In this document: positions 2,774 to 63,304 of the stretch, one piece after another
How the letters are laid out: every line of letters starts with the position of its first letter
Numbering within the stretch: the first letter of the stretch is position 1
DNA from: Sipunculus nudus
Lineage: Eukaryota > Annelida > Sipuncula > Golfingiida > Sipunculidae
DNA length: 64,000 nucleotides
Reading direction: 5' to 3'
NCBI GenBank assembly: GCA_026874595.1
Contig: CM049308.1
Location: 26,522,367-26,586,366 of the forward strand
Program-made: the position numbers and the translations under genes
Notes under the pieces: model-generated
Told to the model about the DNA's origin: nothing
Databases searched by the model: none
The model's input: the letters and a program-made list of their open reading frames with translations, nothing else

Positions 2774-2926
2774 CAATTATTGCCGTTCCCACCAGATCTG
2801 CCAGAACCAGTTGTCAGGGAGCACTGCACAGCAACGGTCCAGAACAGTGTGACCTTTGACATGTGTGCTGAAAAACTTGACATTGACATTACTGCTGAAG
2901 TTGAGGCATGTGTGATAGATGTCAAG
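2774..2926 (+). CDS. exon 1 of window: C8-like Cys domain, first half (cassette 1)
   Basis: 153 nt, phase 0-0, acceptor after TTTATAG, donor before GTATAT. Encodes 51 residues with cysteines in REHC, FDMC and EACVIDV, the spacing seen in the C8-like region that follows VWD in VWDE-type proteins. It pairs with exon 39981-40127 (147 nt, also phase 0-0), where the cysteines recur as KKC, GTC and EDC. Its own VWD partner should lie upstream of the window. The exon opens in mid-protein, so no start codon is expected. Confidence 0.82.
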
Positions 2927-11900: not shown

Positions 11901-14900
11901 AGTATATTCAGGGGCAGATCCCTGTGGGAGATTAGTGGGTTTAACCCTCTCCAAATTGGGAAATACTTTGGTTGCCTTTTAGTTTGTGAGGAATTCAATT
12001 TTTGTGATTTTTAGGAAAGGGTCACTATTGTGAAAATAAAATTAAGAGGCCCATTTGTCAAAAGTAAGTTGAAAAGCAAATGATTGATGTTATAAATAAT
12101 AATTGAACTTCTATGTTACTGTTTATCTAAGATAGCTATTATAGATAATCAGAATAAGGATTTCAACTCGCTCCATATTCACTTAGGTCCCTGTCAGATT
12201 CCTCAGCAATGTTTGACAGCATGTATTGTCCTGAAATTCTATGTGACTACCAACCTTGATTGCATATATAATCAGATAAACAACTTAGCCCCTTTGATAA
12301 GATGGGAGAATGCTCTCTCAATTTTAATGATTTAACAGTGTCACACTCTCCCTAGTGTTAGCTACAATAAGTCATCCAGCCCTGTACCAGCAAGCTACAA
12401 ACAGATTAGATTTCTCTGCATTAAAATTTTAAACCCCAGTGATCAGCATATCTCTTAAAGAACAAAATATCAACCTTATTTCAATTTTAGTCAGTTTCCA
12501 GAAGGCTGAGCTGTAGGAATTTGGATTAACAAATTTAAGATGCTGATATTATTTTTAACATATCTCTTAGTAGTCACAGTTATCTCTGCTCACAACACAA
12601 TTGTTGGCAGATTTTTATGTCATCAACAGAGTTTGTTTGTTGGTTTGTGTGTATTTTATCATCCATGCAATGTATCAAAAAATCATTGATGAATTTCAGT
12701 TAAATATGTTTCGGTAGTCCTCAGAACAAAGTCTCTGTGAGTGCTCTCCTTTTACTGATATGAAAATATTTTTCAGCCTAATGTGTGTATTATCGGTGAA
12801 ACATGTGTCACTGCTGGAACTCCTGACCCCGATGACCCACTTCAGAGATGCAACCCCTCCATCAGTTCTACTGAGTACACAGTGGTACCATGTAAGTCAT
12901 GTAAAAGCACTTCACAGAGGTGTACAAGCAGGGCACCAAAAGCCCTCACAAATTTTAGAAAAAATACAAGTGGTAACGGTGGGGGTTTATAATAATAATA
13001 ATCATATACAGCATTTCAAATTTCTAAAGTGTCCTATTCATTTTTTTAAATATGCTCTCAGGTGCTGTACAATGAATTAAATGTATCTACTTAGTACATA
13101 AAATGCTACAAAAAGATATACAATCCATTAAAATATGCTTGTTTAAAAATATAAATCATTAAAAGATTCATAAAAAATGAAAAATGAGAGTTTATCTCTG
13201 ATGTGATTAGTAAGTCCATCCCATAATAGGGGAGCTGAAGTTCTAAAGGATCTGTTTCCATATGTAATCGTCCTTGACTTAGGAACGTTTAAATTAACAT
13301 AGGAGGCTGGTCTTAAAGCTTGTGCTGGTTGGTTCTGCTGGACTAGTTTCCCAATATACATTGGTACAAGTGCATGTAGTGATTTAAAAGTATATAATAA
13401 AACTTAATATTGTAACCTACATTCAAAGGGTAGCCAGTGAAGGCCAGTAAGGTCTGATATCACTGACAATGTCAGTCTCATCTGTCTGTACAATTCACCC
13501 TCCTGGTCTCTCAGTAATGTTCATTCTTGTAGCTTTTCTCTGCTCCCTTGGGAGCATACAATCCAAGCAGCAATAACATGTGATATAAGGTTATTCTTTC
13601 TACATTTGTCTGCCACACATGACCAGTACCCATTCACTCCTGGGTGCAGAGAGCACACCCTTGTGGTAAAGACTTTGGCTAGGAATCTTAGGATGGAAGA
13701 AGGTCAGAATGGGACATGAACCCATAACCTCAGGGTCACAAGTTCATCGCAAGTTTGTGTTAATCATTATGCCGCCATGAAAGACATGCAGATTCCGTCT
13801 AAGCTGGAAAAAAACAAAGACCAAAAAGGCAATAGATTGTAGTTCATACAGGTACCTGTGTCACCATATGTTTTTTTTAGCTGAAAATATTTAAACAACT
13901 AAGCCAGTATAAAAATGTATGAAACTAATATGCAGATTAAAAAAAATATGAATTCCTTAAAATCAGTGAATTATTAACGTATTTACATTAAACTATCAAT
14001 CTAGAATAACTAGAAATCTGCATTCTGGTGAATGCAAGCCTCCACCATTTAGGGAGTATGCCCCTATTGTTTGCTTTCATTGATTCAGGGGACGAATTAG
14101 GCTAAAAAATTTACATGCTCCAGGTGCACTGTTGACACAAAACCAACATGCACCTCAAGATTTCAACATGCACCTTGTAATACTAGTGAGAAAATTTGCT
14201 GGTGAAGGAGTTTCTGTTGCTTAAAAAATGGAAATGCTAATATGTGATTGTGATGTTAATGAATAGTGAAAAAATAAGATGCTGCACCAACATTTTTTTC
14301 ATTGGTTTTATAATACATGCATAGAGTGCACCCTTGGTATGATTTCTAACTTTCTGTACATGCAAACGTGCACCCTTTATTTCGCAACCTGTTGATTAGT
14401 CCCATATTCCGAGGTTCATTCATGTATAAACGACTCTACATTCATGAATATTCCTTGATGAGATTCCTGAATCTGGATTATGTGTTGGATCCACACCAAA
14501 ATCTAGCCAATTCTTCATACATCCATTGCTGAAATGCCCTTAAAATATCATGAGATTCCTTACGTAATTTTGTGAGTGATGTTGTGAACAAACATACAAA
14601 CACACACAGGAATAAAGATGAACGCATACCCTTCTGGCAGAGGCAATAAAATCATAGTGTCACATGTGCCTATAAGCTGAGAGTCATGACAAATGGTTCA
14701 CTTTCTAATTTGTTTCAGCTACTCCAACTTGGCCTAACATTGTCTTAGGAAATATCGGACCAGTGCTAGACTACAGAGGTGTGACAATCTTCGGAGGTCC
14801 GTCCTTCTCTGGCCCAGGGGCTGTAATGGAGTGGAGATTCTTTGCCAAGACCATTGGCACCATCACATTTGCGATCTTCCGGCCAGATGGAGATGACCCA

Positions 14901-17900
14901 ACAAAATTTGTTGTGATTGGTATGAACACAGTGCCTGTTATGCAGCCAGGTCTCAACGTGATCAAAGTCCCTGCAGAACTCCAAATTATTGTTAACACTG
15001 GAGATCTAATGGGAGTGATGTTCCCGCAGACTTTTGACGCAGAAGCACTCGGAATCATTGCCATTGGAGTTGAAGATGACGTTAGTCCAGATGTTCCCGC
15101 TGATGCTATGGTGCCTTACTTCACTGTGAACATGAATACTGAAGATTTTGACGCGCCTGATATTGAAATCACAGCTACTATTGGAACTCAGAATGTATAC
15201 CCTGCTGTTATGCCTTCAACAGTGTCAGGTATGTATACAGCATTTATATTTAAAGGGATCTATTCACTTCCCAGGTATGTTAAATATACTGTGTTATTAC
15301 AGTGTTATCTCCTTCAAATATTATGTACAGTTAGATGTTGCTTACCTCTCCTACCATACCCAAACCTGGGTTGCTGGCACTTTGTTCTTTTTAGAAATTA
15401 AGGGAAAATCTCCATTTTTCCATTGAAAACATAATGTTACACTTAAAATCTGCCTACTATTAAAACCACTGTTTACAGCTGGCACAATTATTCCTCTAAA
15501 TATTTCCTGTGTAAACGTTAAAAATTATGTCAATGTTGTGTAAATCATAGAAGTTATTAACACTAACATATTGTACCTTGTCAAAACATCATTAAATATA
15601 TTCCTCACTTTCCATGGTAATTATAGAAGCTAAAGAGCAGTTTTCAAGTATTTAAAAATATTTTTTTTTTATTTAATTGTATGCCAGAAATAAGGTCAAG
15701 ATTTAATGGATTTCTTAGTTATTAGCAAAATTGTACAATCATTACCTTAAATTTTGCCCAACTCTGACCATGGCACATTTTCCCTATAAGGCCAAAAAAA
15801 ATTAAAGGTATGGTTCTCAGGCACCGCCCGCATTAATTTTAAACCCCCGCATCAAAAATTTTTATTTTAATTTTCAATGAAAACTTTCCAATTTTGAGCT
15901 GCTGCCTCTCTGACATTTCTTTCAAGAAGATAAAACCATACAATTTCCTTTGTTTTGTAGTGCTTTTACTTATTTAGTAAAATAAAACTGTTATTTTCAT
16001 GCTTTTCCCTTATCATTTGACATTTTTATCGAAACATACCAAAAAATTTAAATTAAAAAAAGCGCCCGCCCGCATTGATTTATGAAAAAAAGTGCCTGAG
16101 AACCATACCTTTTTTTTTAATTTGGCCTAAGCACTGTTGATTTAATTTTCATATCATGCTCACAGGAGCCAGCTAGTGTACCTCTCTCCTCTCTCCAATT
16201 GTCAGGTTCCATACAGTTTCCATAAACAAGTTATAATTTCTATGTTAAATTCAGATATTATTTCAAGACTAATGATACATTTTGATAAAAGTCCTAATGT
16301 AGTCATTTGTCCTTAAAATGATATAATAGTGCTTGTCAAGTGAGGAATGTTCATGATGTGAGGAATTCCCATTTGCCAGATACAGAAGAGCTGGAAACTT
16401 TGTGTTATTATTTTTAAATGTGTTAAATTCTCAGTACTTAAAAAGTTGAGCAATCTTTAATTATAAGCATGGTGATATTGTTTATATGATAAACCCTCAC
16501 TTCAAAATGACAGTGTGTATGCCAGATTTAAATAGGTGTTTTTTTTATCAATTTTACTTATTTATTTCAGTTAAAAATGAAACATTGAAACATTTAATTT
16601 AATTTGGAAACCTCTTGTCACGCCATTGTACAAAACTTATTTGAAATAGTGGTCCATGGTGGTCTAAATGGAAGCAGCATATGAACATAAACAAAGAAAG
16701 AGAACTTAGAATTCCCATTTTGTGATATGTTTATTATAAATGTAGATTGAAGTCATGATAAGGAGTACTCAAGCCAGAGCCAGGTGATGCTTATGGAGTG
16801 CTCAAATTCAAATCTTGCTACCCATTTCAGCCCTAGCTTTTAATAAGACTTTTACGATTTACTATTGAACTGATACATCACAATACAAATTCAAGAGTTG
16901 TAGTATTATCATCAGATGTCCCTTTATCGAAGCATTGACAGTATTTGATTATCCAATAGGAAGTAACATCTAACATTTAAAATAGTCTCTCAGCAACATG
17001 TCAGACATATGAGTGTGTAATTTCACTAATAAGAGACCAATTTAACAACACCCTAATGCCTAATTGTTTGTATATATATTTAATGGGTATGAAAATATCT
17101 TATGAGCATAAGCTTATATACATTTCTGAATACAAGGAAAAATTTGACTTGGAATTTAAATTGTAAAGTATCAAATACGTATGGTGTAGTGTATAATGAA
17201 TAAAGTATAGTAATAGTATCGTTACAGACCTAACTTTTGATAATGTAGTATTTAAATATTTCAGGAGCTATACCTCTGCCTGTTCCGTCACTGACTGCGT
17301 CTAAGGTTGCCGTGAAACCAGCACTGATGATTTTCCCCGGCCTCGCCTTCCCGGCGGGGGACACTATCAAAGGATTCTCATTTTATGCCATGGCTAAAGG
17401 AGACTTCTTTGTCAGTTTTTGGAGAGTAGATCCTAATGATGCTAAAGTCTACATTCTCATTGGTAAAATCTTGGTTACTGTAAAGAAACCGGGTAAGGTA
17501 GACTTCATGGCCACACCAGACACCTGGGTCGGTGTTATGCCCGGTGACGTGATTGGTATCCATTTCCCAGATGGCGCCACTGAGTCACCGTTGTCCATTT
17601 TTGATTCATCAGATCCAGGAGATGTGGATCCAGCAACCTTGATCCCTGTCCTTGAAGGAAAGTTGTTTGACGGAAAATTAACCATTGATTTCAAAGCAAA
17701 ACTCAAACCTGCAAAGAATGTTCAGCGTATGCCAGCTTTGACTGTTATAACTACCATTGGTAAGTTACCACTTATTATACTGTTTTTATTTAAAATAATT
17801 GATTAATTTCTATCAATGTATAAACCTAGGTCTAAATTTGTTGAAGTAACTCAGTTTTGCTCAGCAAAACTACTGTGACTGATTAAAGTATTTGGGATGT

Positions 17901-53030: not shown

Positions 53031-53094
<64 letters not shown>

Positions 53095-56000: not shown

Positions 56001-59000
56001 ATCCCTTACCTTCCCTACCGTTCCAATCGCTGCATTCCCACGTCCTGGCAAGCTTGAACTGACCATCATGTTGGATATGAAATTCACGGAGGATTCGCTG
56101 CTGACGTCCTTCAAACTCTTCGCAGAAAATACAGGAAAGATGTTCCTTGACGTGTTCAGACCGGGCAAGAAAGGTCTGACGTTAGTGTTCAAGGTCGAGG
56201 TTGACATTACAACTACCGGAGCTGTCCTCATCGAACTTGACACATCACTACAGTTCCTGGTCAAAGCTGGTGATGTGCTTGGCTTCCATTATGAAAAAGG
56301 TGATGGAAAAGAGGGTGGAGTTATTCCGTTCTGCGACAATGCTAAAGGAGGACTCATCGCAGGACTATCCAAGGCAGCCCTTAGTTCAGTGTTTACAGCA
56401 AAAATGGGAGATGCGGACCTGAGCTTGGACATCGAAATAAATGTTAAACCTGTGGCTGGTCTAAAGATCATGGCTGCCCTCTCACCACTTACTGTGCCAC
56501 CACCAGGTAATGTTCACAATCTTTTTATTTCATTGTCATAATAACAAATTTATAGAGGTTCTTTTAAGAAAACTATTTGTGACACTGATTGCCTATTATT
56601 TATTGATTGTATGATTCTTGAATCGTTATATACATGTTCTCTTGAATAACTAATCACAATTTCTTCGTTTTACCTTTTATTATATTATGGGTTCATAAAT
56701 ATACATAAGTATATCAGAATTCAGGTCAGTTGATCTTTTTTTAGCCTTCAGCAATTGGGCCTCTTATTCAAGATTTTTTTTCTCAATAATGGCCCTTTAG
56801 TGAATATTCAAAATTTAAACATTTGCAAAACAAAAAGGCAACCGCAGTATTGGTTTAAGGAAATTGGTAGATTATAAATAGGAAAAACTATATAAGAAAT
56901 TGTTCGAACCCTGAAATAGAAAATCTCTCTTTTCTCCATGTCCAGTATTTTTCAAACCATGTAACTCGTATGCATATAACAATGTTTTTATTATTGCTTC
57001 TTGCAGATAAACCCATGGCTTTCCCTCCAATGCCAGTCGTGAAACTGTCATACACACCAGACAGGAAGCTGATCGCATTCAAGGGCATATCCTTCATGAA
57101 CCTTGCTGTGACCAGTTCGTTCAAATTCTACGCCCTCACCAATGGAGTGTTTTACGTTATCTATACAGCTGTAGTTTCAGGCAAGCTCATGGTTCTTGGA
57201 ACTAACAAGGTCTTTGCCCCCAATGCCGGTGAGGTCACTGTGAACATCGATCCATCAGTTCGACTTATCGGAGCGCCAGGGCTTACCATTGGTATTGCTT
57301 ATGATGAAGACCCGACAACGAAATTTGGTATCATACCAGTTGAGCTTTTGACGAAGAAGCCTTGCTGTGGCTTGACCTCCAATATGTTCTATGATGTTCT
57401 CAAATTTGATGCATATTTCTCAGATATCGGAAAAGGTGACCTACCACCCATCTCACTTGACGTCAAGTTGACTGTTGCCTTACAGCCGAATCCTTCCACA
57501 TGTAAGTACCAGAACTTGTGTAATTAATTATACTATTCAAATAAATTAAACTTAATAAGTCTAGAGATAATGACCTGGGGTCAATTCAGATTTTTCAATT
57601 CCAATTCAGTTCCAGTTTATCAAAAAATTTTTATCAAACTTTTAAGTCCATTTGCTGATAAGTGTTATGAAAGAAAATATCAATTGCATTTGAACTTGTT
57701 TCCTTTTCATTTGCTCAAAGTCCTATATTGCAAATGATGCTCGTAACAATAAAATCTGTGGGGCTTTCACACCCAAGCCTACTGGCTCTGAGCCCCAAGC
57801 TTATCCCAGTTTCTGTAGCAATGAAGTGACTTAGGAGAGAAACTCCTCTTTGGTAGGAAGCTAGTCCAGCACCGGAAAATATTCCATGGCTCATCTGTAA
57901 AATAAACTGCTTCAAGAAAAGAAGAACAACTCTTGGGCAAGGTTAAGGTAGTATCAGTGACAAATTTGAAATTTCATGATAGGAGATCTGTATTGTTTCA
58001 TTTGTGTAAATTTTAATATTTAACAGATAAAAAACTGTTTTTTAGCTCAGCTGACTTATGAGTCATCTTAGCTTTAGTCGTGGTTCATTGTCCGTCATCC
58101 ATAGATGTGGCACATTTTGAAACCGTAAGACCTAGGAATCCAAAATTCTGCATGTTAGATGACCCCAAAATCTCCTACCAAGCTGAAAACTGTCCTTCGC
58201 GACTTCGTTCCTTCGAGAAATTAAGGAAAAACCTCAATTTTTTATTGAAAACCTATTTTCACACTACAGGACTGCCTAATATCAAAACCACTCATCTGTT
58301 TTTCCTCATATTTACCATAAATATTCCTCTATATAGTTCCTATGTACATGCCAGAAATTAGGTCTGTATTATATAATTTAAAAAAGTTGTGGGCCCAAAC
58401 ATATTGCACTTTGTAAAAAATCAGGAAAAAATATTTGGTCACATTTACACAAAAAAACGTTAAAGCTAGGCACTTTTTTTTCAGTTATATAACTTTAATT
58501 AATCAAAATTTAATTGTATACCCAAAATTAGATCAAAATCTTTTAAATTTTTAAAAATATAAGCAAAAATATAAAATTGGTATCTTAAATTTTGCCCAAA
58601 TTTGACCATGGCACATTTTTTTCTCGTAAGTATATTTAATTTATTTTTCACAGCTGGGATACATGTGGATTTATGTGGAATTCTGAATGTTTTTTCTTTG
58701 CAGACTTTGGTCCCGTTCCTGTGATCCCAATTAGCCCTGAATTTGCAGAAGTACCAGGACAGGATTTGTATGTGTTTACTGACCTGAAGTTCCACGATCA
58801 CGCTCACTTCGTAGGATTTACATTCATTAGCCTGGGCGCTGGTGATATTTACTTTGGCCTCTGGCGTCTGGAGGATGAGAAGTACACACTGATAACAGAC
58901 ATGAAGGTCACAAGCTTCGGTGCTGGTAAAATCATGGTGCTCATCCGTCCCCAGATTGTGGTGCAGCCCGGTGATATGATCGGCATCCACTACCCTAAAT

Positions 59001-62000
59001 ATGTCAAAAAACAACCAGGGCTGGTCCCATTTGCCTCTAAGAAGAAGCTCTGCTGCGGACTCACCGAGGACCACCTGTCTGGATACTTGAAGCTGCCTAT
59101 TGGTGCTGACAAGATTACAGTGCAACCCAAGTTCAAGAAGCCTGCATCTGGCTTACTTCCAGCCATCCAGCTTCTATCCATTAAAGGTATTTGTCTTTTC
59201 ATTATTGTATACTCTCCTAAATCATATGTCATATATGGCCTAGATTTCACAGAACTGGTAGAAATTCACAGCTTGTGAGAGCCTCCACAAATTTCTGTTA
59301 CAGAAAGGCATCACACCATAAAATTGCAGTATAATTTGATAAATTTGTTCCAGAAAATCATTCAGAAAGTTGGAGTCCACTTATACTCTAGTATAAGTAT
59401 ACAAATATATTTGCCAGACTTGGCAAACATGTCGGCTTTGGTCTCAAACTACATCAATTATGCCATGTCTGACTCCTCACCTCACGATGTCATTCCAGTT
59501 GAATTAGGTCGGTACTTGGCTGTTTGAATAAATAAATATATTTACATCCAAATAGCAATGTAATTCATTTATTTTGATATGATGCTCATTAAATAAATGA
59601 AAAAGTTAAAAAAACTGAGCAAAACACTTGCCCAAATGTTTTCTGCCATTCCCTGTTACCATACAACCAGCATGGTATGACCAGAGGCCCAACACATATG
59701 ATTAACAATAATAGATTGTAGCTAAGTACCAGAAAATAGTTGTAGGCAACCAAAAGTCAGCTTCTGCTTGCCCAGCTTTTGATATGATTGTGTACCTTAA
59801 CCTGAATCTCAACTAATCTTTAATTAGATATTTTATTTCTTGAAGAAATAAAATCATATTGATAATAACTTATTATCTTAAATTACCTATATGTTTATCT
59901 GTACAAATACTTTAGAGAAATTATTTTTAAAAAAAAAGAAAATATTTATAGTCTAAATAAAATCAAATGAGCAACATAAAAATATGGAACACATTTTGTA
60001 TACATCCATTTTGGTTGTTTAGAATCCAAAACAATGTACATGAACTTATTATTCTGTTTGATTGATAGATATGCAATTGATTGACAGGGGTGTATATTAT
60101 GTTCTTATTGTATCCGCCAAAACGAAGTTTTGCGGATACTATGTTTTTGACCGGGTTCCTCCGCCGCCCTGGCGTTCATTTCCGGAGAACTCCTCTGAGA
60201 CTACTGGATGGATTTTTCTGAAACTTACACAAATTATGGGGTCACATGTGAACTGGTGCCTAACCAAGTAACCTTGACTTCTGACCTTTCCTCTCTGCCC
60301 AGCGTCCGTTTGTGCGTCTGTTTCCACACATAAACCCACATATCTCGGGAACCGTTTGACCGATCAGGAAAAAAAATTTACCCAAATGTAGCCCTGGGAT
60401 AGCTTTATAACATACACAAAAAAAGGTGGCGCCACCTGCAACCATTTTTGCACTGTGTCCATCTGTTCATCTGCCTTAGGTTTAAATCACTCATATCTCT
60501 ACAGTGGTTTGACTAATTCACCTAAAATTCGGATTGCGTATACATCCTAGATAGCTTTCTTGATTTTATGACAGGTGGCGCCACCTGCATTCACGTTAAC
60601 GCTGCAGACATCAAAGCTCATATCTCGGGAACCGTTTGACCAATCAGGAAAAAAAATTTACACAAATGTAGCCCTTGGATAGCTTTATCACTTACACAAA
60701 AATGGTGGCGCCACCTGTAGCCTTTTTTGCACAGCGTCCATCTGTTTGTCTGCCTTAAGTTAAAATCACTCATATCTCGGCAGTGGTTTGACCAAATTAC
60801 CTGAAATTCGGCATGCGTATACATCCCGCATAGCTTTCTTGATTTTATGACAGGTGGCGCCACCTACATTCACGTTCACGCTGTAGACATCCATGCTTAT
60901 ATCTCCCGACTCGTTCAACCAGTCAGGAAAAAACTTTTACACAAATGTAGCCCTTGGATAGCTTTATAACATACACAAAAATGGTGGTGCCACCTCTAGC
61001 CACTTATGCACAGCGTCCATCTGTTTGTCTGCTGTGGGTTAAAATCACTCATATCTCTGCAATGGTTTGATTTTTCCACATGAAATTTTGCATGTGTATA
61101 CATCTTGGATAGTTTCTCGTTCAAATAACAGATGGCACCACCTACAATCATGTTTATGTGGCAGAGATCCATTCTAATATGTAACACATGTAACTATTTC
61201 CCCTTGCCACTCAATCCATGCCTCACTTCACCCGGTCTTCTCTGATTTTGGGGGATACACGTAGTCGCTTGTCGACTACCCGTATTCTAGTTGATTGAGG
61301 TATTTACATCATGTTCTGATTGATTGACAGGTGTGTACATCATATTATAATTTGATTGACAATGTGTGTATGTCATGTTGTAATTGATTGACAGGTGTGT
61401 ACATTATATTATAATTTGATTGACGGTGTGTCTGTCATGTTGTAATTGATTGACAGGTGTGTACATTATATTATAATTTGATTGACAGTGTGTGTCTGTC
61501 ATTTTGTAATTTATTGACAGTTGTGTACATTATGCTTTATTTGATTGACAGGTGTCTGGCCATCCCCACCAGTTCCAATGGGTACATTCCCTGTGAAATC
61601 TCAGCGATATTTGAACATCATGATGGAGCCAAAAATAAAGATTGCTTCCAAGATCTGCGGTTTTAAGTTTATCACTGATGAAGTTGGTGATGCTTACCTC
61701 AGCATCTGGCGCCCAGATTCTACTGGATCTCAGGTGACAAGGGTTGGTTCCATCCGTGTTTTTGTTGACAGCCCTGGAGAACATCACATCAATGTACCAC
61801 TAAACCTGCAAATAGATGCTCAGCCCGGTGACATCACAGGAGTTCATTACCATGATGCCTCTGGCGGTGATGGCATTATACCTTATGCACAGATTGACAA
61901 GACTTCAGGTCCCTCAATATGCTGCGGTGCGAGACCATCCAATATGGCTCCAGTGTTTTACCAGCAACTGAGCGAGGGAGACCTACCCACAGATCATACA

Positions 62001-63304
62001 CCAAAGAAAATCGACATCTCCCAAGACTTCCAAAGGGTCATGCCTGTTCGACCAATGGCCTACTTTGGTAAGTTAAATAAGTGATTGTAAAGTGATGAAT
62101 GACAGTAAAGTGATGACTGACTGTTAAGTAATGACTGATAGTAAAGTGACAACTGACAGTTAAGTGATGACTGACAGTACAATGATGACAGACAATAGAG
62201 TGCTACTGAAAATAAAGTGTTTATTGACACTAAATGTGATGACTGACTGTTAAGTGATGACTGACTGTAAAGTTATGGTTTATAGTAAAGTAATGATTGA
62301 CTTAAGTGGTAACAGACAGGTGATGACTGACTAAAGTGAATACTGAGACTAAAATGATTATTGATAGTGAAGTGAATGATTGACTGACTAACCAGTTTTA
62401 GGGTTGGTTGCATGTGGTCTGAAATTCATCAGACATACAGGAAGATTCTCTGATATGCTGAGTTTTAACAAAATCCCTTTGCACATTGTGGGTATTGTTA
62501 TAAAGTAAACAATTATATTTATGGTAAAGAGATTTGTTTCCTCACTGAGATTTTTCAACAGATTTATTTTCTCTGAGATTTTTTTAATGCTGTTCCACTC
62601 TGACATCTTGGTAGTTTGCTCTTACATTAAAATGAGAAAAGGTCTTTGCTCCTGAGCACCATGACCTATTGGTCACTTCTTTTTATATCAAAATGTGACT
62701 GAACCTGTTCTAGATGTAATCAAAAACAAAATTATTTTGAGTGCATTTCTAATAGTTTTCAGTTCTGATGGAATATGCTGTTTTTATTATCAAATACTTT
62801 GAACAAATTTTATAAGGTTTTGTTTTTCATTTCTAGATCTTCCAGCCCCTGCTGCCCCTGACATGGTTGTAGGTGAATACACTGGCAAGAGTAACCCCAA
62901 ATTCACCGTAGTGAAAGCACCTTTCACGTCCAAGGCTATGGTGACCGGATTCACGTTATACAGCCTTCTTGAAGGCCGAGTCCTGTTTTTGGATATTCTC
63001 CGACCAACGAGTGAAACTGAGGTGGAGATCGTTTGCAGCTACTCACACAAGACAACAGCTACAGGCTTTGTGACCTTTGCCCTCTCTACTGATGAATTCT
63101 GCCCAGTGGAAGTGGGTGACATGTGGGGCGTCCATTACACTGACTCGAAATCCGGAAGCATCATCCCTGTAGAGATGTCTAATGAAGCGCCATACGAGCT
63201 GTTCACTGCTAATACATTTGCAGCTGATGCTGAAGTTGGAGCAACAGTTACAGTCAAATCAGCAGGAAACGGAAACCTTGCTTTATACCCCAGCACAGTT
63301 GGAG
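2774..63304 (+). CDS. VWDE-like multidomain extracellular protein gene, internal part (28 exons)
   Basis: Overall gene model joining the exons listed separately below. All introns are GT-AG and the phase of every donor matches the next acceptor, giving one open frame of 7,354 nt (about 2,451 residues) with no start or stop codon, so both ends of the gene lie outside the window. Domain order is C8-like, EGF, IPT-like, Cys module, two unnamed beta domains, LamG, Ig-like, beta domain, VWD, C8-like, EGF, IPT-like, Cys module, five unnamed beta domains. The part from Ig-like through VWD to EGF and IPT matches the known VWDE layout (family knowledge). The LamG insertion and the repeated unnamed domain are not in vertebrate VWDE as I know it. 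Alternative: a mollusc-specific paralogue rather than a VWDE orthologue. No transmembrane segment is visible in this part. Likely extracellular or matrix. Confidence 0.88.
3433..3619 (+). CDS. exon 2: end of C8-like domain and start of EGF (cassette 1)
   Basis: 187 nt, phase 0 in, phase 1 out, donor GTATGA. The first half (LTGNLDWGF...NAKC) completes the helical Cys domain. The end, CPDNCKGHGECKEG, is the first half of an EGF-like domain, split after the third cysteine. Residues between them are acidic and proline-rich and act as a linker. Corresponds to exon 41664-41841 (178 nt, same phases), where the EGF half reads CPRGCSGQGTCAAG. Confidence 0.88.
4022..7450 (+). repeat. dispersed element with ~337-bp internal tandem repeats, interrupted by a Helitron
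   Basis: Begins TTTTAGCTCAGCTGACTG and ends near 7420-7450 with CCAGTCAGCTGAGCGTCATG, so the termini carry an inverted AGCTCAGCTGACT. Inside, units containing ATTGATCATGAGATGTT, then ACTGGTGGCGCCACCTGTAT, recur with a 336-347 base period (landmarks at 4375, 4712, 5048, 5384, 5731, 6072). A Helitron-like copy (6099-7265) splits the last unit. Other members start at 24203, 35816 and 58041. Confidence 0.8.
6099..7265 (+). mobile_element. non-autonomous Helitron-like element, copy 1
   Basis: Starts TCCGCCAAAAGGAAG after an A and ends with TATTCTAG before a T. The terminal hairpin is diverged in this copy. The host repeat resumes directly after the CTAG end. Contains about 280-base internal units with GGTGGCGCCACC palindromes. 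No ORF of note. Confidence 0.8.
8177..9278 (+). mobile_element. Helitron-like element, copy 2 (5' end truncated)
   Basis: Begins inside the family sequence at TATGTTTTTGACTGGGTTCC and ends GTAGTCGCTTGTCGACTAC, CCGTATT, CTAG. The 3' hairpin is intact. Four GGTGGCGCCACC-type boxes lie inside. The first about 25 bases of the family are missing. Confidence 0.8.
9290..9612. repeat. dispersed intronic repeat fragment
   Basis: Shares the string GTCCTGAAAATTTCATCAA and the terminal GGAGG-TTAATG style with the segments at 14020-14650, 30040-30350 and 38790-38990. Non-coding. Confidence 0.45.
10090..10277 (+). CDS. exon 3: second half of EGF and start of IPT-like domain (cassette 1)
   Basis: 188 nt, phase 1 in, 0 out, acceptor TTTCTCCAG, donor GTGAGT. 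It begins GVCECEEDWFGVNC, giving the CxCxxxWxGxxC end of the EGF domain. A proline-rich spacer follows, then a segment with Cys pairs (PICDPRKEDC) leading into VIEIDGDEF, the typical first strand of an IPT/E-set fold as it occurs after EGF in VWDE relatives. Counterpart: 44333-44517 (185 nt), with ICDRSLGPCVEITISGSN. Confidence 0.9.
10278..11653 (+). other. intron with a ~160-bp internal repeat and a MITE
   Basis: At 10405-10760, phrases such as ATATTCTCCAAGTTATACAG recur about every 160 bases (near 10420, 10580, 10730). The MITE at 11233-11584 is listed separately. Nothing coding was found. Confidence 0.5.
11233..11584 (+). mobile_element. PIF/Harbinger-like MITE, copy A
   Basis: The element 11236-11581 starts GGCCAAAAAAAATAAAAGG and ends with CATTTTTGGCC; the inner ends read CTCAGGCAC and GTGCCTGAG. 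It is flanked by TTA on both sides. A 3-bp TWA duplication is the hallmark of PIF/Harbinger. Confidence 0.75.
11654..11884 (+). CDS. exon 4: rest of IPT/E-set-like domain (cassette 1)
   Basis: 231 nt, exactly 77 codons, phase 0-0, acceptor TTTTACAG, donor GTCAGT. A beta-rich sequence ending with IIIQVSKDGGETLGPEVKIVF, the terminal strands of the E-set fold (compare the VSNDG motif at this point in VWDE proteins), then a tail with four cysteines (TDCFECDPETAECLQK). The paired exon 48323-48553 has the same length and phases but only one cysteine in its tail. Confidence 0.88.
12777..12891 (+). CDS. exon 5: short Cys module (cassette 1)
   Basis: 115 nt, phase 0 in, 1 out, acceptor TTTTTCAG, donor GTAAGT. 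38 residues of the pattern NxCxIxxxCxxxGxxxPxxPxxxCNPxxS. This module follows the E-set domain in VWDE-like invertebrate proteins and also occurs in other extracellular proteins; I do not know an official name for it. It is matched in length to the base by exon 53769-53883. Cassette 1 has GETCVTAG where cassette 2 has GECYMPLD. Confidence 0.88.
12985..13450 (-). mobile_element. LINE remnant: C-terminal tail of a reverse transcriptase ORF
   Basis: On the minus strand, 13361 to 13143 reads a 72-residue open stretch with TITYGNRSFRTSAPLLWDGL and TNHIRD, the familiar end of many non-LTR retrotransposon reverse transcriptases (pattern YGxRSFxxxAPxLWNxLPxxIR). It ends at a stop near 13143. Sequence to about 12985 is probably its 3' UTR (AATAATAAT tract). 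5'-truncated and presumably dead. Confidence 0.55.
13540..13790. repeat. SINE-like dispersed repeat
   Basis: A GC-richer block with ACCCATAACCTCAGGGTCAC and TTATGCCGCCATG, phrasing typical of interspersed short repeats in marine invertebrates. Recognised by style only; the boundaries are uncertain. Confidence 0.35.
14020..14650. repeat. dispersed repeat split by a nested MITE
   Basis: AATATTCCTTGATGAGATTC, GATTCCTTACG, AACACACACAGGAAT and GGCAGAGGCAAT parallel 30040-30350 and 38790-38990. The block 14098-14403 interrupts it. Confidence 0.6.
14098..14403. mobile_element. nested MITE-like element
   Basis: Begins GGGGACGAATTAGGCT and ends AACCTGTTGATTAGTCCC, imperfect inverted ends. Inside are recurring CATGCACCT/GTGCACCCTT words. 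It interrupts the surrounding repeat, which is continuous in the copy at 30040-30350. Confidence 0.5.
14719..15228 (+). CDS. exon 6: unnamed ~165-aa beta domain, copy 1
   Basis: 510 nt, phase 1-1, acceptor TGTTTCAG, donor GTATGT. A whole domain on one symmetric exon. Shared signature: a hydrophobic strand, then F-x-IFRPDGDDP (the W/F-R-P/V motif), FVVIG, a glycine turn (PGLNVIKV), strand LQIIV and the box NTGDLMGVMF, followed by an acidic loop and a C-terminal beta strand IEITATI. No cysteine, so it lacks the CCG motif of copies 4-6. Flanked by the Cys module and copy 2. The function is unknown; a beta-sandwich for adhesion or glycan binding is only a guess. Confidence 0.9.
15241..15786. repeat. 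divergent copy of the 36-kb / 58-kb repeat
   Basis: Shares CTCCTACCATACC, AAACCTGGGTTGCTGG, ATTCCTCTAAATA and the end TTAAATTTTGCCCAACTC / TGACCATGGCACATTTT with 35880-36400 and 58100-58620. Non-coding. Confidence 0.6.
15787..16130 (+). mobile_element. PIF/Harbinger-like MITE, copy B
   Basis: The element 15790-16127 is flanked by TAA on both sides. Termini GGCCAAAAAAAATTAAAGG and TTTAATTTGGCC. Internal GCACCGCCCGCATT and GCGCCCGCCCGCATTG match copy A. Confidence 0.78.
17265..17759 (+). CDS. exon 7: unnamed ~165-aa beta domain, copy 2
   Basis: 495 nt, phase 1-1, acceptor ATTTCAG, donor GTAAGT. Same plan as copy 1: FSFYAMAKGDFFVSFWRVDP, YILIG, PGKVDFMAT, then MPGDVIGIHF, an acidic loop and a basic C-terminal strand (TIDFKAKLKP). 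No cysteines. Same length as its cassette-2 partner 57007-57501 (495 nt). GC content and codon use are clearly higher than in the surrounding intron. Confidence 0.9.
17994..18990. repeat. dispersed element with TCAAGGTCA units
   Basis: Starts ATGCCCCCCCCCC and consists of about 120-150 base units, each with a TTTTGAAGGGCT word, a GACCTTGACC word and TTCAAGGTCAAATC. Related segments are at 27505-28255, 41035-41425 and 54545-54990. Poly-C at the left end and poly-G at the right end of other copies make inverted ends. Confidence 0.75.
19322..19930 (+). CDS. exon 8: LamG-like (concanavalin A-like jelly roll) domain
   Basis: 609 nt, phase 1-1, acceptor TTTTTGCAG, donor GTAAGT. About 203 residues with the LamG layout: AFPLDATTAG start, GIVLTGGVDSFVNIPNTG, a SLSLMISVKVEG strand, the VWVQITATYDY strand, MILLDGKKAG, and the end FKGGIANLQIFSRVVS. 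This matches the Laminin_G_3 / LamGL type (family knowledge). One symmetric exon, which makes it easy to insert by exon shuffling. It lies between unnamed-domain copy 2 and the Ig-like domain. There is no counterpart in cassette 2 within the window. Confidence 0.9.
20401..21017 (+). mobile_element. Helitron-like element, copy 3 (short form)
   Basis: Preceded by A, starts TCCGCCAAAACAAAG; ends GTAGTCGCTTGTCGACTAC, CAGTATT, CTAG, then T. It also has TTTTGGCGGATA just before the hairpin, the inverse of its 5' end. About 560 bases shorter than copy 5, equal to two internal units. Confidence 0.85.
21330..22356 (+). mobile_element. second Helitron-like candidate with ~303-bp internal repeats
   Basis: Begins about 21330 with TTTAGCCCTCAGCCCTTAGG and ends TCAGCTTCTGCTGATGTTCTAG followed by T: a 5-bp hairpin and CTAG end as in the main family. 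Units starting near GAGCGGGATATCTCTAAAAG repeat three times (about 21413, 21715, 22017). The 5' boundary is uncertain. A fragment of the same start occurs near 56743. Confidence 0.55.
22477..22700 (+). CDS. exon 9: Ig-like domain, first part
   Basis: 224 nt, phase 1 in, 0 out, acceptor ATTTCAG, donor GTAAGT. Contains SFICIIKTT, a core tryptophan in TIKWYIGK and the strand EIKLTLTTD, consistent with an Ig-like fold placed before the VWD region as in VWDE. The domain continues in exon 25332-25424. Confidence 0.85.
22701..25331 (+). other. intron
   Basis: 2.6 kb with no exon found. 24203-24440 starts TTTTTAGCTCAGCTGACTAT, a partial member of the 4-kb element family. The rest shows no clear structure by eye. 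Confidence 0.5.
25332..25424 (+). CDS. exon 10: Ig-like domain, last part
   Basis: 93 nt, phase 0-0, acceptor GCCTTACAG, donor GTTCGT. 31 residues beginning VRVEVTVAYTSNP. In VWDE relatives I would expect a cysteine in this strand pairing with the one in FICIIK; none is present here, so the Ig disulfide seems to be lost. The end TLPPVTPEFK links to the next domain. Confidence 0.82.
25966..26385 (+). CDS. exon 11: beta domain upstream of VWD
   Basis: 420 nt, 140 codons, phase 0-0, acceptor CATTGCAG, donor GTGAGC. Opens LVITEGDTDPVTITVTA, a Calx-beta-like or VWDE-specific strand start, with cysteines in DDLC, KSCTIKL, FKCPNGD and LSFCGS, and ends with FIGTIQ. In VWDE the same position holds a cysteine-bearing beta domain before the VWD. 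Calx-beta is an alternative reading that I cannot settle by eye. Confidence 0.88.
26386..27230 (+). other. intron
   Basis: No exon. One poly-G tract (about 26977-26992), otherwise AT-rich unique-looking sequence. Confidence 0.5.
27231..27310 (+). CDS. exon 12: linker and start of VWD domain
   Basis: 80 nt, phase 0 in, 2 out, acceptor TTTCTCCAG, donor GTAAGT. It ends with STCSVFNDPHIRTFDGK, the diagnostic VWD opening (C-x-DPH-x-TFDG). The DPH aspartate belongs to the calcium site in this family. The last codon is completed by the next exon. Confidence 0.92.
27505..28255. repeat. TCAAGGTCA-unit element, second copy
   Basis: Bounded by a poly-C tract (about 27517-27540) and a poly-G tract (28217-28230) followed by AGGCATAT, giving inverted ends. 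Units carry CTTCAAGGTCAAATCTGC, TGCAAGGTCAAAT, TTCAAGGTCAAATC and TTGAAGGTCAAATC. Confidence 0.75.
29624..29687 (+). CDS. exon 13: VWD domain, small exon
   Basis: 64 nt, phase 2 in, 0 out, acceptor ATTGCAG, donor GTAAGT. Encodes KYDNMHLGEFILYQHTTRPY, the strand after TFDG with the GEFILYxH pattern typical of VWDE-type VWD domains. Too short for ordinary ORF searches. Confidence 0.9.
29688..31033 (+). other. intron with a dispersed repeat
   Basis: 30040-30350 is a copy of the family at 14020-14650, uninterrupted here (CATGAGATTCCTTTCATGAC, ACACACACAAACACACATG). The rest is AT-rich. Confidence 0.55.
31034..31231 (+). CDS. exon 14: VWD domain, central part
   Basis: 198 nt, 66 codons, phase 0-0, acceptor TTAATAG, donor GTATTT. 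Cysteines in EEPCSFGKPGATCNCAAAVR and FNSCETG, followed by LYLNGEMTPGTY, all characteristic of the VWDE-type VWD (CNC-AVR and LY-NG-PGT motifs). Donor GTATTT is weaker than the others but gives the only in-frame join. Confidence 0.9.
31250..31590. repeat. two-copy tandem duplication, ~180 bp
   Basis: TTATGGCAGATTAATTATAA and GCTATGTTTGAAACCCACA in the first copy recur as AATGGCAGATTAATTATTAA and GCCATGTTTGAAACCCACA in the second. It lies in the intron right after VWD exon 14. Confidence 0.75.
31904..32006 (+). CDS. exon 15: VWD domain, late part
   Basis: 103 nt, phase 0 in, 1 out, acceptor ATATCAG, donor GTTTGT. Encodes VILPTGTRVIIML...FLTVTVKAG and IHDKENVAG, the strands just before the GLCG motif. 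Confidence 0.9.
32230..32440. repeat. GC-richer SINE-like insertion
   Basis: A block from about GGCCCGGTGGCAACTGCACC to TTCGGTCACCCTGGGTG, with base composition unlike the surrounding intron. It has no splice-compatible continuation with neighbouring exons. Boundaries and class not determined. Confidence 0.3.
33211..33325 (+). CDS. exon 16: VWD domain, GLCG end
   Basis: 115 nt, phase 1 in, 2 out, acceptor CTTTTCAG, donor GTAAGT. GLCGTFDGDTSNDLTMPDG is the conserved VWD C-terminal motif with the Ca-binding DGDxxND loop, followed by PDKFSLSWQ. The VWD is complete across exons 12-16. Confidence 0.93.
33326..34536 (+). other. intron without recognised structure
   Basis: Only short CTGTCTGTTTGTCTGTT phrases near 33620, seen in many dispersed repeats of this window. 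No exon. Confidence 0.45.
34537..34871 (-). mobile_element. PIF/Harbinger-like MITE, copy C (inverted)
   Basis: In reverse orientation relative to copies A and B: CAAGTAAAAGCACTGCAG and GGAGCTCAAAATTGATAAG are reverse complements of their internal text. It ends GGTGCCTGAGAACCATAC and TTTGGCC. The left terminus is eroded, so no clear 3-bp duplication is visible. Confidence 0.7.
35230..35366 (+). CDS. exon 17: post-VWD Cys-rich segment
   Basis: 137 nt, phase 2 in, 1 out, acceptor TTATTACAG, donor GTAAGT. Contains GGICASDPDE, a cluster TCECQFDTYTCG and NLCQPKD. Lies where VWDE proteins have a Cys-rich stretch between VWD and the C8-like helices. Confidence 0.88.
35816..36440 (+). repeat. AGCTCAGCTGACT family member
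   Basis: Starts TTTTAGCTCAGCTGACTG; contains TGTGGCACATTTTGAAACC, ATCTCCTACCAAGCCGAAAA and TTCCTCTATATAGTTCC. Close to the copy at 58041-58640. The matching 3' end word CAGCTGAGCACAGTGACCC occurs at about 37676, so the element may extend to 37712 with later insertions. Confidence 0.7.
36690..36709. repeat. poly-C tract
   Basis: About 18 consecutive C after ATCATCCCT. A similar tract is at 5607-5621. Confidence 0.85.
38790..38995. repeat. dispersed repeat, third copy
   Basis: CCACACCAAAATCTAATCAG, TTCCTGAAATGCCC, ACAAACACACACACGAAC and CTCCTGGCAGAGG match 14020-14650, with an internal deletion. Confidence 0.6.
39166..39272 (+). CDS. exon 18: acidic linker after VWD
   Basis: 107 nt, phase 1 in, 0 out, acceptor CCCTCCAG, donor GTAAGT. 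36 residues: a short helix (EDILDQLIDEAM), one Cys, then an acidic loop VVVIDPDYDPT. The matching exon of cassette 1 should lie just upstream of the window. Confidence 0.85.
39333..39460. repeat. 38-bp tandem repeat, 3 copies
   Basis: GTCCTGGAAAATGGCCATTT starts at 39341, 39379 and 39417, shortly downstream of the donor of exon 18. Confidence 0.9.
39981..40127 (+). CDS. exon 19: C8-like Cys domain, first half (cassette 2)
   Basis: 147 nt, 49 codons, phase 0-0, acceptor ATTTTTCAG, donor GTAAGG. Helical and lysine-rich (KEKDLVKAQKKCDKVIKKLE), with further cysteines in FGTC and MEDC. Homologous to exon 2774-2926. A tandem repeat with donor-like CAGGTAA units begins about 45 bases downstream of this donor. 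Confidence 0.88.
40171..40625. repeat. ~25-bp tandem repeat carrying donor-like CAGGTAA
   Basis: Units of the form GAGCCTCACAGGTAAACTAT plus TGTCA, degenerate, with a 25-28 base period. Many contain CACAG-GTAAAC, a fair match to a 5' splice site. It starts about 45 bases after the real donor of exon 19. Confidence 0.88.
41035..41425. repeat. TCAAGGTCA-unit element, third copy
   Basis: Contains CTTCAAGGTCAAATCTGC, ACTTTTGAAGGGC and a terminal poly-G tract (about 41408-41422). Confidence 0.65.
41664..41841 (+). CDS. exon 20: end of C8-like domain and start of EGF (cassette 2)
   Basis: 178 nt, phase 0 in, 1 out, acceptor TTATCCAG, donor GTATGT. ITKNDDWINN...TEHC closes the helical domain; CPRGCSGQGTCAAG starts the EGF domain. 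Pairs with exon 3433-3619, splitting the EGF at the same place. Confidence 0.9.
41950..42805 (+). mobile_element. element with GGGCCCCGC inverted ends and 145-bp tandem units
   Basis: Left end AGGGCCCCGCTTGACAAGGG; right end CGCGGGGCCCTTCAAGGAC, roughly inverted. Inside, ACTCAACAACAACATACTGC recurs at 42061, 42206, 42350 and 42495 (about 145-base period). Confidence 0.6.
43340..43851 (+). mobile_element. Helitron-like element, copy 4 (old, 5'-truncated)
   Basis: Only the 3' half: AAATCACTCATATCTGGGCA ... GGTGGCACCACCTACAATC ... and a decayed end ATTCGCTGGTTGACTGCCC, TTATT, CTAG, T. The hairpin no longer pairs perfectly. Confidence 0.7.
44333..44517 (+). CDS. exon 21: end of EGF and start of IPT-like domain (cassette 2)
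   Basis: 185 nt, phase 1 in, 0 out, acceptor CTTGGCAG, donor GTAACA. GICKCDEGFMGPDC completes the EGF; VICDRSLGPCVEITISGSNL is a good IPT/E-set start, followed by EAACAFTEMK. Pairs with 10090-10277. Confidence 0.9.
44518..44954 (+). other. intron part before the 66-bp array
   Basis: 44720-44830 (AGTAAAAGATGGGACACAAC, CAGGCAGGGGCATTTGCACC) resembles 55185-55300 in another intron; probably a dispersed repeat. No exon. Confidence 0.4.
44955..46606. repeat. 66-bp minisatellite, about 25 copies
   Basis: Unit: CCCACATACTACTTAAATGG, CATTATGAGAGAGTCACTAG, ACCATGCTTATGACTGGTAA, AGGCTA. The copies are nearly identical; the commonest variants are CATTCTGAG and GCTTGTGAC. The first unit is diverged (AAAATCATT). 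66 is a multiple of 3, so short open frames appear on the minus strand; not considered coding. Confidence 0.97.
47513..48016. mobile_element. GC-rich foldback-like element
   Basis: Left end ATAAGCCCTTTTTACACTAG, right end ACATGTGTAAATGGGGCTAT, inverted around GCCCxxTTTACAC. The inside is GC-rich with repeated AGAAAAATGT, GCGCGC and GTAGAGC words, unlike neighbouring intron. No ORF. Confidence 0.55.
48323..48553 (+). CDS. exon 22: rest of IPT/E-set-like domain (cassette 2)
   Basis: 231 nt, 77 codons, phase 0-0, acceptor TGTTTCAG, donor GTAAGG. FSIKISNFGTDFSTSFMLLL is the terminal-strand motif of the fold; the tail is RCFDVDYDAKKGLI. Same size and phase as 11654-11884, but three of the four tail cysteines of that exon are missing. 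The two biggest minisatellites of the window lie in the introns on either side. Confidence 0.9.
48554..49150 (+). other. intron part before the 57-bp array
   Basis: Unremarkable AT-rich sequence; no exon seen. Confidence 0.45.
49155..52800. repeat. 57-bp minisatellite, about 64 copies
   Basis: Unit: GGATAGGCCAGTACTGGAGC, CAGGGGTTACCCCTCACTAA, GTGGTCTACTTGCTCAA. Variation is concentrated at few sites (GTACTGG/GCACTGG; GGGGTT/GGGGTG/GGGGAT). Because 57 = 3 x 19 and the unit has no stop in one minus-strand frame, long open frames of 303, 450 and 450 codons arise, broken only where GCTCAAGG became GCTAAAGG or GCTAATGG. There is no start context, no splice fit with the host gene and no family resemblance, so I treat these as non-coding. 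Confidence 0.97.
53035..53090. repeat. (GA)28 microsatellite
   Basis: Uninterrupted GA run, preceded by GATAGATAG and CACACACA tracts. Confidence 0.97.
53625..53715. repeat. short palindromic dispersed repeat
   Basis: GAGGGTTTCATATTCGCGAA and AATATTGCGAAAATAAAACC form inverted halves, then CTCGTGAAC...AACCACAGT. Related pieces are at 38400-38470, 43075-43160, 53335-53370 and 56760-56850. Confidence 0.55.
53769..53883 (+). CDS. exon 23: short Cys module (cassette 2)
   Basis: 115 nt, phase 0 in, 1 out, acceptor TTTTTCAG, donor GTCAGT. NTCFIDGECYMPLDPDPGNP then KACNP; four regularly spaced cysteines. Identical length to exon 12777-12891. The donor was chosen after GGAG because it keeps the length and phase of the partner exon. 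Confidence 0.9.
53884..55999 (+). other. intron with a TCAAGGTCA-type element
   Basis: 54545-54990 carries the GACCTTGACC / ACTTTTGAA words of the family at 17994 but is more diverged. 55185-55330 matches 44720-44830. No exon. Confidence 0.5.
56000..56506 (+). CDS. exon 24: unnamed beta domain, copy 3
   Basis: 507 nt, phase 1-1, acceptor GTTTTAG, donor GTAATG. Signature: FKLFAENTGKMFLDVFRPGK, LTLVFKV, a glycine turn, LQFLVKAGDVLGFHY, then GGVIPFCDNAKGG and strand LSLDIEINV. It has one cysteine where copies 4-6 carry CC. Partner of exon 14719-15228 in the cassette duplication. Confidence 0.92.
56507..57006 (+). other. intron
   Basis: Contains a fragment TTTTTTTAGCCTTCAGCAAT near 56740 (start of the 21.3-kb element family) and a GCAAAACAAAAAGGCAACCG word of the 53.6-kb repeat. 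No exon. Confidence 0.45.
57007..57501 (+). CDS. exon 25: unnamed beta domain, copy 4
   Basis: 495 nt, phase 1-1, acceptor TTCTTGCAG, donor GTAAGT. FKFYALTNGVFYVIYTAVVS, a glycine turn, GAPGLTIGIAY in place of the GD-x-x-G box, FGIIPVELLTKKPCCGLTSN and the strand ISLDVKLTV. It has the vicinal CCG motif after the IIP strand. Same length as its partner, exon 17265-17759. The aspartate of the GD box is replaced, a visible divergence. Confidence 0.92.
58041..58640 (+). repeat. AGCTCAGCTGACT family member, close to the 36-kb copy
   Basis: TTTTAGCTCAGCTGACTTAT, then TGTGGCACATTTTGAAACCG and ATTCCTCTATATAGTTCC, ending TTTGACCATGGCACATTTTT about 85 bases before exon 26. Confidence 0.7.
58704..59186 (+). 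CDS. exon 26: unnamed beta domain, copy 5
   Basis: 483 nt, phase 1-1, acceptor TCTTTGCAG, donor GTATTT. The clearest copy: FVGFTFISLGAGDIYFGLWR, YTLITDMKV, GAGKIMVLI, VVQPGDMIGIHYPK, LVPFASKKKLCCGLTEDH, then LPAIQLLSIK. An open frame of 208 codons on the opposite strand here is a shadow caused by codon bias. Confidence 0.93.
59418..59507 (+). CDS. possible extra small exon between copies 5 and 6
   Basis: 90 nt, preceded by TTTGCCAG and followed by GTCGGT, open in the frame required and symmetric (phase 1-1), so it could be included or skipped without disturbing the frame. It would encode about 30 residues (DLANMSALVSNYINY...DVIPVELG). The end DVIPVELG resembles the IIPVEL strand of domain copies 4 and 7, so it may instead be a remnant of a decayed domain copy. 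Seen: frame and splice-like ends. Not shown: any use. The polypyrimidine tract is poor. Confidence 0.28.
   Translation, partial: TWQTCRLWSQTTSIMPCLTPHLTMSFQLN
60045..60112. repeat. left part of acceptor-like repeat array
   Basis: AATTGATTGACAGGGGTGTA at about 60075-60095 belongs to the array at 61291-61551; the two parts are separated by Helitron copy 5. Confidence 0.65.
60113..61290 (+). mobile_element. Helitron-like element, copy 5 (most complete)
   Basis: Preceded by A (60112), begins TCCGCCAAAACGAAG; ends with hairpin GTAGTCG-CTTGT-CGACTAC (61261-61279), then CCGTATT, CTAG (61287-61290), followed by T. Two interleaved sets of GGTGGCGCCACC-type boxes lie at 60426/60703/60984 and 60572/60850/61130, showing a roughly 279-base internal unit present nearly three times. 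TC start, hairpin, CTRR end and A/T target fit Helitrons; no Rep/helicase ORF, so non-autonomous. Confidence 0.85.
61291..61551 (+). repeat. tandem array of splice-acceptor-like units before exon 27
   Basis: Alternating ~32-base half units: TTGATTGACAGGTGTGTACA-type and TTGATTGACAATGTGTGTAT-type, giving a 62-64 base period (ACAG ends at 61330, 61394, 61456, 61520). The real acceptor of exon 27 (ACAG ending 61551) is the last member. Confidence 0.88.
61552..62067 (+). CDS. exon 27: unnamed beta domain, copy 6
   Basis: 516 nt, phase 1-1, acceptor GATTGACAG, donor GTAAGT. CGFKFITDEVGDAYLSIWRP, VTRVGSIRV, a glycine turn, LQIDAQPGDITGVHYHD, GIIPYAQID, the vicinal pair SICCGARPSN, then a longer tail than the others. 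The acceptor lies at the end of an array of near-identical GATTGACAGGTGTG units, so the true site is one of several look-alikes; this one is chosen because it alone leads into the open frame and conserves phase. Confidence 0.92.
62070..62395. repeat. degenerate ~20-bp tandem repeat
   Basis: Units like AAGTGATGACTGACTGTT/AGTAAAGTGATGACTGAC directly after the donor of exon 27. Confidence 0.85.
62837..63304 (+). CDS. exon 28: unnamed beta domain, copy 7
   Basis: 468 nt, phase 1-1, acceptor TTTCTAG, donor GTTTGT. VTGFTLYSLLEGRVLFLDIL with RPTSE, a glycine turn, CPVEVGDMWGVHYTDSK, SIIPVEMSNEAP and strand GATVTVKS. No CCG motif; two single cysteines (EIVCSY, DEFCPVE) instead. The phase 1 donor shows the gene continues beyond the window. 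Confidence 0.9.

Follow-up and report, generated by a model that had tools for sequence, protein, structure and literature searches.

A domain without a Pfam match on seven phase 1-1 exons of Sipunculus nudus, and its relatives across the genome

Introduction

Which domain is encoded by seven similar exons in a gene of Sipunculus nudus, is it already named, and what might it do? The exons were predicted in a stretch of 64,000 nucleotides (assembly GCA_026874595.1, contig CM049308.1, positions 26,522,367 to 26,586,366 of the forward strand), hereafter the window. An earlier note, made from the letters of this stretch, had proposed that each exon carries one copy of an unnamed domain of ~155-172 residues. 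Here, the window copies are called C1 to C7, and genome contigs always carry the word contig (contig C3, contig C7, etc.). Small positions are within the window and large ones (e.g., 26486804) on a contig.

Homology and age of the seven copies

All seven predicted exons are on the plus strand: 14719..15228 (C1), 17265..17759 (C2), 56000..56506 (C3), 57007..57501 (C4), 58704..59186 (C5), 61552..62067 (C6) and 62837..63304 (C7). All of them begin after an AG acceptor, end at a GT donor and are in phase 1 on both sides. Their lengths ranged between 468 and 516 nt, always a multiple of three, corresponding to 155-171 whole codons plus a split codon. Exon borders were picked to agree with the alignment. 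When phase 1-1 exons were sought blindly under splice thresholds, C1, C3, C4, C5 and C7 were found whole (5/7); the same scan caught just a 3' fragment of C2 and missed C6 entirely, because the acceptors of these two are weak (scores 2.2 and 2.6). The C6 acceptor sits within a tandem repeat (61309-61558), and the C7 donor (GAG|GTTTGT) is also weak. C1 has an alternative donor of equal strength at 15274, in phase 2, and slightly higher scoring acceptors in other phases lie further 5' of C4 and C5 (56946 and 58654).

The alignment and profile proposed by the earlier note as a check were built, and every copy dropped from the profile was recovered at E ≤1.3e-14. Leave-one-out E-values, calculated among the 1098 six-frame open reading frames (ORFs) of the window, were 6.7e-19 (C1), 4.6e-21 (C2), 1e-30 (C3), 3.5e-15 (C4), 1.8e-23 (C5), 1.6e-27 (C6) and 1.3e-14 (C7), and the best non-copy ORF in any run reached only E 0.13. 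Profile scores were 50.9-103.9 bits for the real copies, compared with maxima of 2.8-7.5 when each copy was shuffled 200 times. Chance likeness was thus ruled out by both E-values and shuffle scores. At the level of sequence, the proposal of seven single-exon phase 1-1 copies was borne out.

Identity of the other copies to C3 was 22-28 percent, and five positions were invariant in all seven (P5, G45, G73, G90 and G94, C3 numbering). The earlier note had described a shared motif pattern; the homology held, but the consensus is looser than proposed. Strict GDxxGxHY was found in 4/7 copies (C3, C5, C6 and C7) and (F/W)RP in 3/7 (C1, C3 and C6), with LRP in C7. C4, the most diverged copy, has neither motif.

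Judging from the terminal branches of the seven-copy tree (0.8-1.3 substitutions per site) and the lack of any exon-to-exon DNA match between window copies at E ≤1e-3, these copies are old. Branch support in this tree was only 33-58. The same lack of exon-to-exon DNA matches ruled out that the window copies arose by recent tandem duplication. The DNA matches between different copies lie in their flanks, with C1/C5 at 68 percent and tandem repeats near C6 and C7; further flank matches (C3/C4 and C6/C7) are flanks overlapping one another. Phase-1 symmetry would allow such an exon to be inserted or duplicated among phase-1 exons with the frame intact. The unlimited tandem growth that had been envisaged was, however, too strong a term for copies of this age, although the exons are indeed symmetric.

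A family spread over the genome

Genome searches with C6, C2 and C5 (E limits of 10, 1 and 1) gave 25, 11 and 9 matches, including 6, 5 and 5 window copies, respectively; C7 was missed by these three queries. Among the ORFs of selected loci, the seven-copy profile detected outside members on contigs C13 (1e-17), C12 (3e-15), C15 (4e-14) and C7 (1e-12), and at L016, 35 kb upstream of the window (6e-21). The weakest were L031 (3e-5) and L012 (0.0015). With an outside member as query, 68 of 77 scored candidates matched, 63 of them at E ≤1e-4; a few of the 68 places may be fragments of one exon. Contig C7 held 43 of the 68 places, and 40 of the 63 lay within contig C7:66-74 Mb. The latter region also holds 17 of the listed PAN places, and some of its domain copies have stops. 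Stop codons were present in 10 of the 68 family places (8 of the 63). The query recovered C6 at E 3.2e-6, and C6 is the window copy closest to the genome-wide family.

In the reverse direction, a profile of outside sequences only (11 exons plus one stray fragment) found 6/7 window copies at E ≤4.8e-6 and missed C4. After addition of four bridging members (16 rows), the same six were found at E ≤9.9e-10 and C4 at E 1.0. As far as profiles can tell, C4 is joined to the family via the window copies only (E 3.5e-15). For outside members on the plus strand, the best-scoring splice sites were in phase 1-1 in 6/9; minus-strand members were scored only with phase 1 imposed. Exon symmetry, as claimed earlier, was confirmed for 7/7 window copies, and the family recurs across the genome.

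More copies beyond the window, as expected in the earlier note, were found on one side. Two copies on the same strand sit 35-39 kb before it, at contig C3:26486804-26487364 (E 7.5e-21) and contig C3:26482988-26483374 (partial match, E 5.8e-6), but none was found at E ≤1 in the 20 kb downstream or in the 10 kb directly upstream, in a search that left out ~20 kb further upstream (26492000-26512401). Elsewhere on contig C3, three members with equal scores are spaced by ~8.47 kb (57861609, 57870082 and 57878549), probably the product of a recent tandem duplication.

Comparison with named domains

Against Pfam-A (2025), the seven window copies and seven outside members gave nothing better than E 0.17, with no named CBM or lectin family reaching significance. 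The best match among PDB sequences had an E-value of 0.66 with a 7-row profile and 0.99 with a 15-row profile. NCBIfam and PHROGs, both prokaryote or phage libraries, gave no match. The earlier view that no named family fits was upheld for Pfam-A and PDB sequences, and the sequence comparisons support a family without a name in the libraries searched; InterPro, CDD, SMART and metazoan proteomes were outside their scope. Similar nameless sequences are presumably found in other invertebrates. Excerpts of the literature on neighbouring domains and structural matches (including PMC4595640), from a search not aimed at the domain itself, did not name it.

Other candidates for kinship were rejected. 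The neighbouring Laminin G exon is likewise in phase 1-1, but hhalign gave a probability of 0.5 percent against that single exon, and none of the 7 copies matched Pfam LamG. Comparison with the exon at 25966 was also negative. A prokaryotic or viral origin by sequence was rejected after searches that reach close relatives only: no relative was found for C6 or C5 in viral contigs, nor for C5 in genome contigs, and the best phage and plasmid matches had E-values of 0.3 (C6) and 2 (C5). The fold and the kind, a phase-1 shuffled extracellular beta-sandwich, are already known; the family itself has no name in the libraries searched and is widely expanded in the genome.

Predicted structure

The AlphaFold model of C3, computed with the seven-copy alignment, had a pLDDT of 87.8, a pTM of 0.85, 12 strands and almost no helix (values for one of five models). 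It supports an all-beta sandwich fold, as the earlier note had suggested. C6 without an alignment gave no confident model (39.8).

The solved structures nearest to the C3 model were proteins of phage baseplates and fibres and CBM-like esterase domains, and a phage capsid entry was also among the matches. Absence of a family from this match list does not exclude that family. The CBM-like domain of PbeAcXE (PDB 7toh) matched at 6 percent identity, without a sequence match; it is bacterial and fused to an esterase, unlike the animal domain of the window. According to PMC9105624, one esterase domain of this CBM-like type touches its sugar ligand. The phage matches (phi812 9eui, Douge gp20 8zdp and Bxb1 9d93) had 9-14 percent identity, and no phage relative was found by sequence. 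The 9eui match covers chain residues 569-944, implying large insertions. In one such phage fibre, some domains are glycan-binding, according to PMC13033339. The fucose-binding F-type lectin, F5/8C and CBM32 aligned over ~100 of 168 residues, without a Pfam match.

Partner domains

Outside the window, three LDLa repeats (E 3.4e-30) come after one family member, and a PAN domain (8.2e-10) after another. A PAN_1 match was found within 5 kb on the 3' side, on the same strand, at at least 21 of the 63 domain places (E ≤1e-4), and on the 5' side at 0/63 among the matches listed. Since 150 of 268 PAN_1 candidates were scored and 146 listed, 21 is a lower bound. Shifted controls (n = 2000) had a mean of 1.26 and a maximum of 5. 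Within 10 kb, the numbers were at least 23/63 (3') versus at least 3/63 (5'), with 15 of the 23 within 1 kb. Domain and PAN form a recurrent cassette. The partners differ between places (VWD/EGF/LamG, LDLa or PAN), as judged by neighbourhood and not by transcript.

The host gene

All features of the host gene listed here are on the plus strand, and the gene begins outside the window. Downstream of C1 and C2 come a Laminin_G_3 exon at 19322..19930 (phase 1-1, E 4.2e-13) and two candidate exons without a Pfam match, at 22477..22749 (3' border uncertain) and 25966..26385 (140 aa). A VWD domain starts at 27231..27310, continues at 31034..31231 (borders uncertain) and 31904..32006, and ends at 33211..33325. 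Joined, these four exons matched Pfam VWD end to end (profile 1-156, E 6.2e-13). Together with a candidate exon at 29624..29687, placed by splice phase only, their best PDB match was FCGBP (E 4.8e-26), with mucins and VWF ranking lower.

Four exon types occur twice with their order kept: 2774..2926 and 39981..40127; 3433..3619 and 41664..41841 (first EGF half); 10090..10277 (3' border uncertain) and 44333..44517 (second EGF half and tail); and 12777..12891 and 53769..53883 (cysteine-motif exon, phase 1 end). None of 500 shuffles reached the score of any of these pairs. A fifth pair, 11654/48236, was not alike (125/500 shuffles matched its score). The EGF halves, joined as 3433/10090 and 41664/44333, scored 23.9 and 26.1 bits for EGF_2 (cut-off 22.1). 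The cysteine-motif exon (PNxCxI...PDPxxPLxxCNP) has no Pfam match. It lies upstream of C1 and C3, and the domain copies follow it in both blocks, two in the first and five in the second. Phase-1 exon scans gave no candidate in the gaps C1-C2, C2-LamG, C3-C4, C4-C5, C5-C6 and C6-C7; before C3, there were two overlapping, unconvincing frames.

In the 10 kb before the window, the VWD-end exon (E 2.9e-5) and the exon at 39166 (E 4.5e-4) each had a match. A PAN_1 match stands between these two on the strand of the gene (contig C3:26518145-26518360), 4 kb upstream of the window. Downstream, an EGF-like frame was recognized by eye at contig C3:26588235-26588378. We infer that the exons of the window, the upstream matches to them, the EGF-like frame and the two further domain copies upstream belong to one transcript.

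By its domain content, the predicted host protein is VWDE-like and mucin-like. VWDE has a VWD domain and EGF repeats (PMC9117669), and the window gene likewise has a VWD domain and then EGF exons. Compared with this description, it differs in its repeated module blocks and in the inserted unnamed domain and LamG exon, and the best PDB match of its VWD part is FCGBP.

Possible roles of the domain

Because the structural neighbours include a sugar-contacting esterase domain and glycan-binding fibre domains, and because of the partner domains, we infer that the domain is an extracellular module that binds a ligand, most likely a glycan. That the seven exons represent one extracellular beta-sandwich family with such a ligand-binding or adhesive role is, in our estimate, an evenly poised proposition. 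On proteins that are secreted or displayed at the surface, the domain would serve as a putative binding module, with glycans as its most likely ligands. Clustered domain-PAN genes could then provide many lectin-like proteins, and repeated copies between VWD units could make the window gene product a multivalent gel or matrix protein. Alternatively, the copies could bind no sugar and serve a VWDE-like matrix protein as structural spacers or for polymer contacts. Their tandem arrangement in a mucin-like protein, placed between its VWD units, the restriction of invariant positions to one proline and glycines, and the phage capsid entry among the structural matches agree with spacers, which we consider possible but less probable. 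Recognition fits better with the occurrence of the family outside the window gene, beside PAN and LDLa and in large clusters.

The domain could also belong to an already named family of extracellular beta-sandwiches (e.g., F5/8C, F-type lectin, CBM or C1q/TNF) and have diverged so strongly that profile searches missed the link. This is unlikely, given the Pfam and PDB E-values and the hhalign result against the LamG exon reported above. That the exons are decayed or untranslated, with only a residual likeness, is highly improbable: stop codons in 10/68 places elsewhere, the motif loss in C4 and exon models derived from sequence would agree with decay, but splice sites and phases are conserved in the seven exons, whose reading frames (468-516 nt, ~25 percent identity) contain no stop codon.

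A broader scenario may be sketched, which we put forward tentatively. The domain-PAN cassette, expanded to dozens of copies within a single stretch of 8 Mb, would belong to a large unnamed animal lectin-like family that evolves like a recognition repertoire by duplication and loss, and a VWDE-type gel protein would have taken up an old branch of it as tandem copies. About 60 genomic places of a mobile extracellular domain without a Pfam entry mean that many secreted proteins have an undescribed part, and a profile from these copies would allow such proteins to be annotated. Through the domain-PAN cassette, a role in recognition can be put to a direct test.

Other repeats and frames

Neither Rfam (gathering threshold) nor a tRNA scan gave any match in the window. 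A 57-bp minisatellite (49162-52798, 63.8 copies) lies between the C1-C2 and the C3-C7 group and has long open frames on both strands, with minus-strand ORFs of 308, 455 and 460 aa. A 66-bp satellite at 44957-46606 has 25 copies with 99 percent matches. Near a family member at locus L042, three ORFs (5145-5561, 6381-6773 and 7500-7862, numbered along the minus strand) share a pattern around (L/W)WxExGC followed by GSPxNS/GGPANS. The first two had no Pfam match, and the pattern of the three frames is possibly another unnamed repeated domain.
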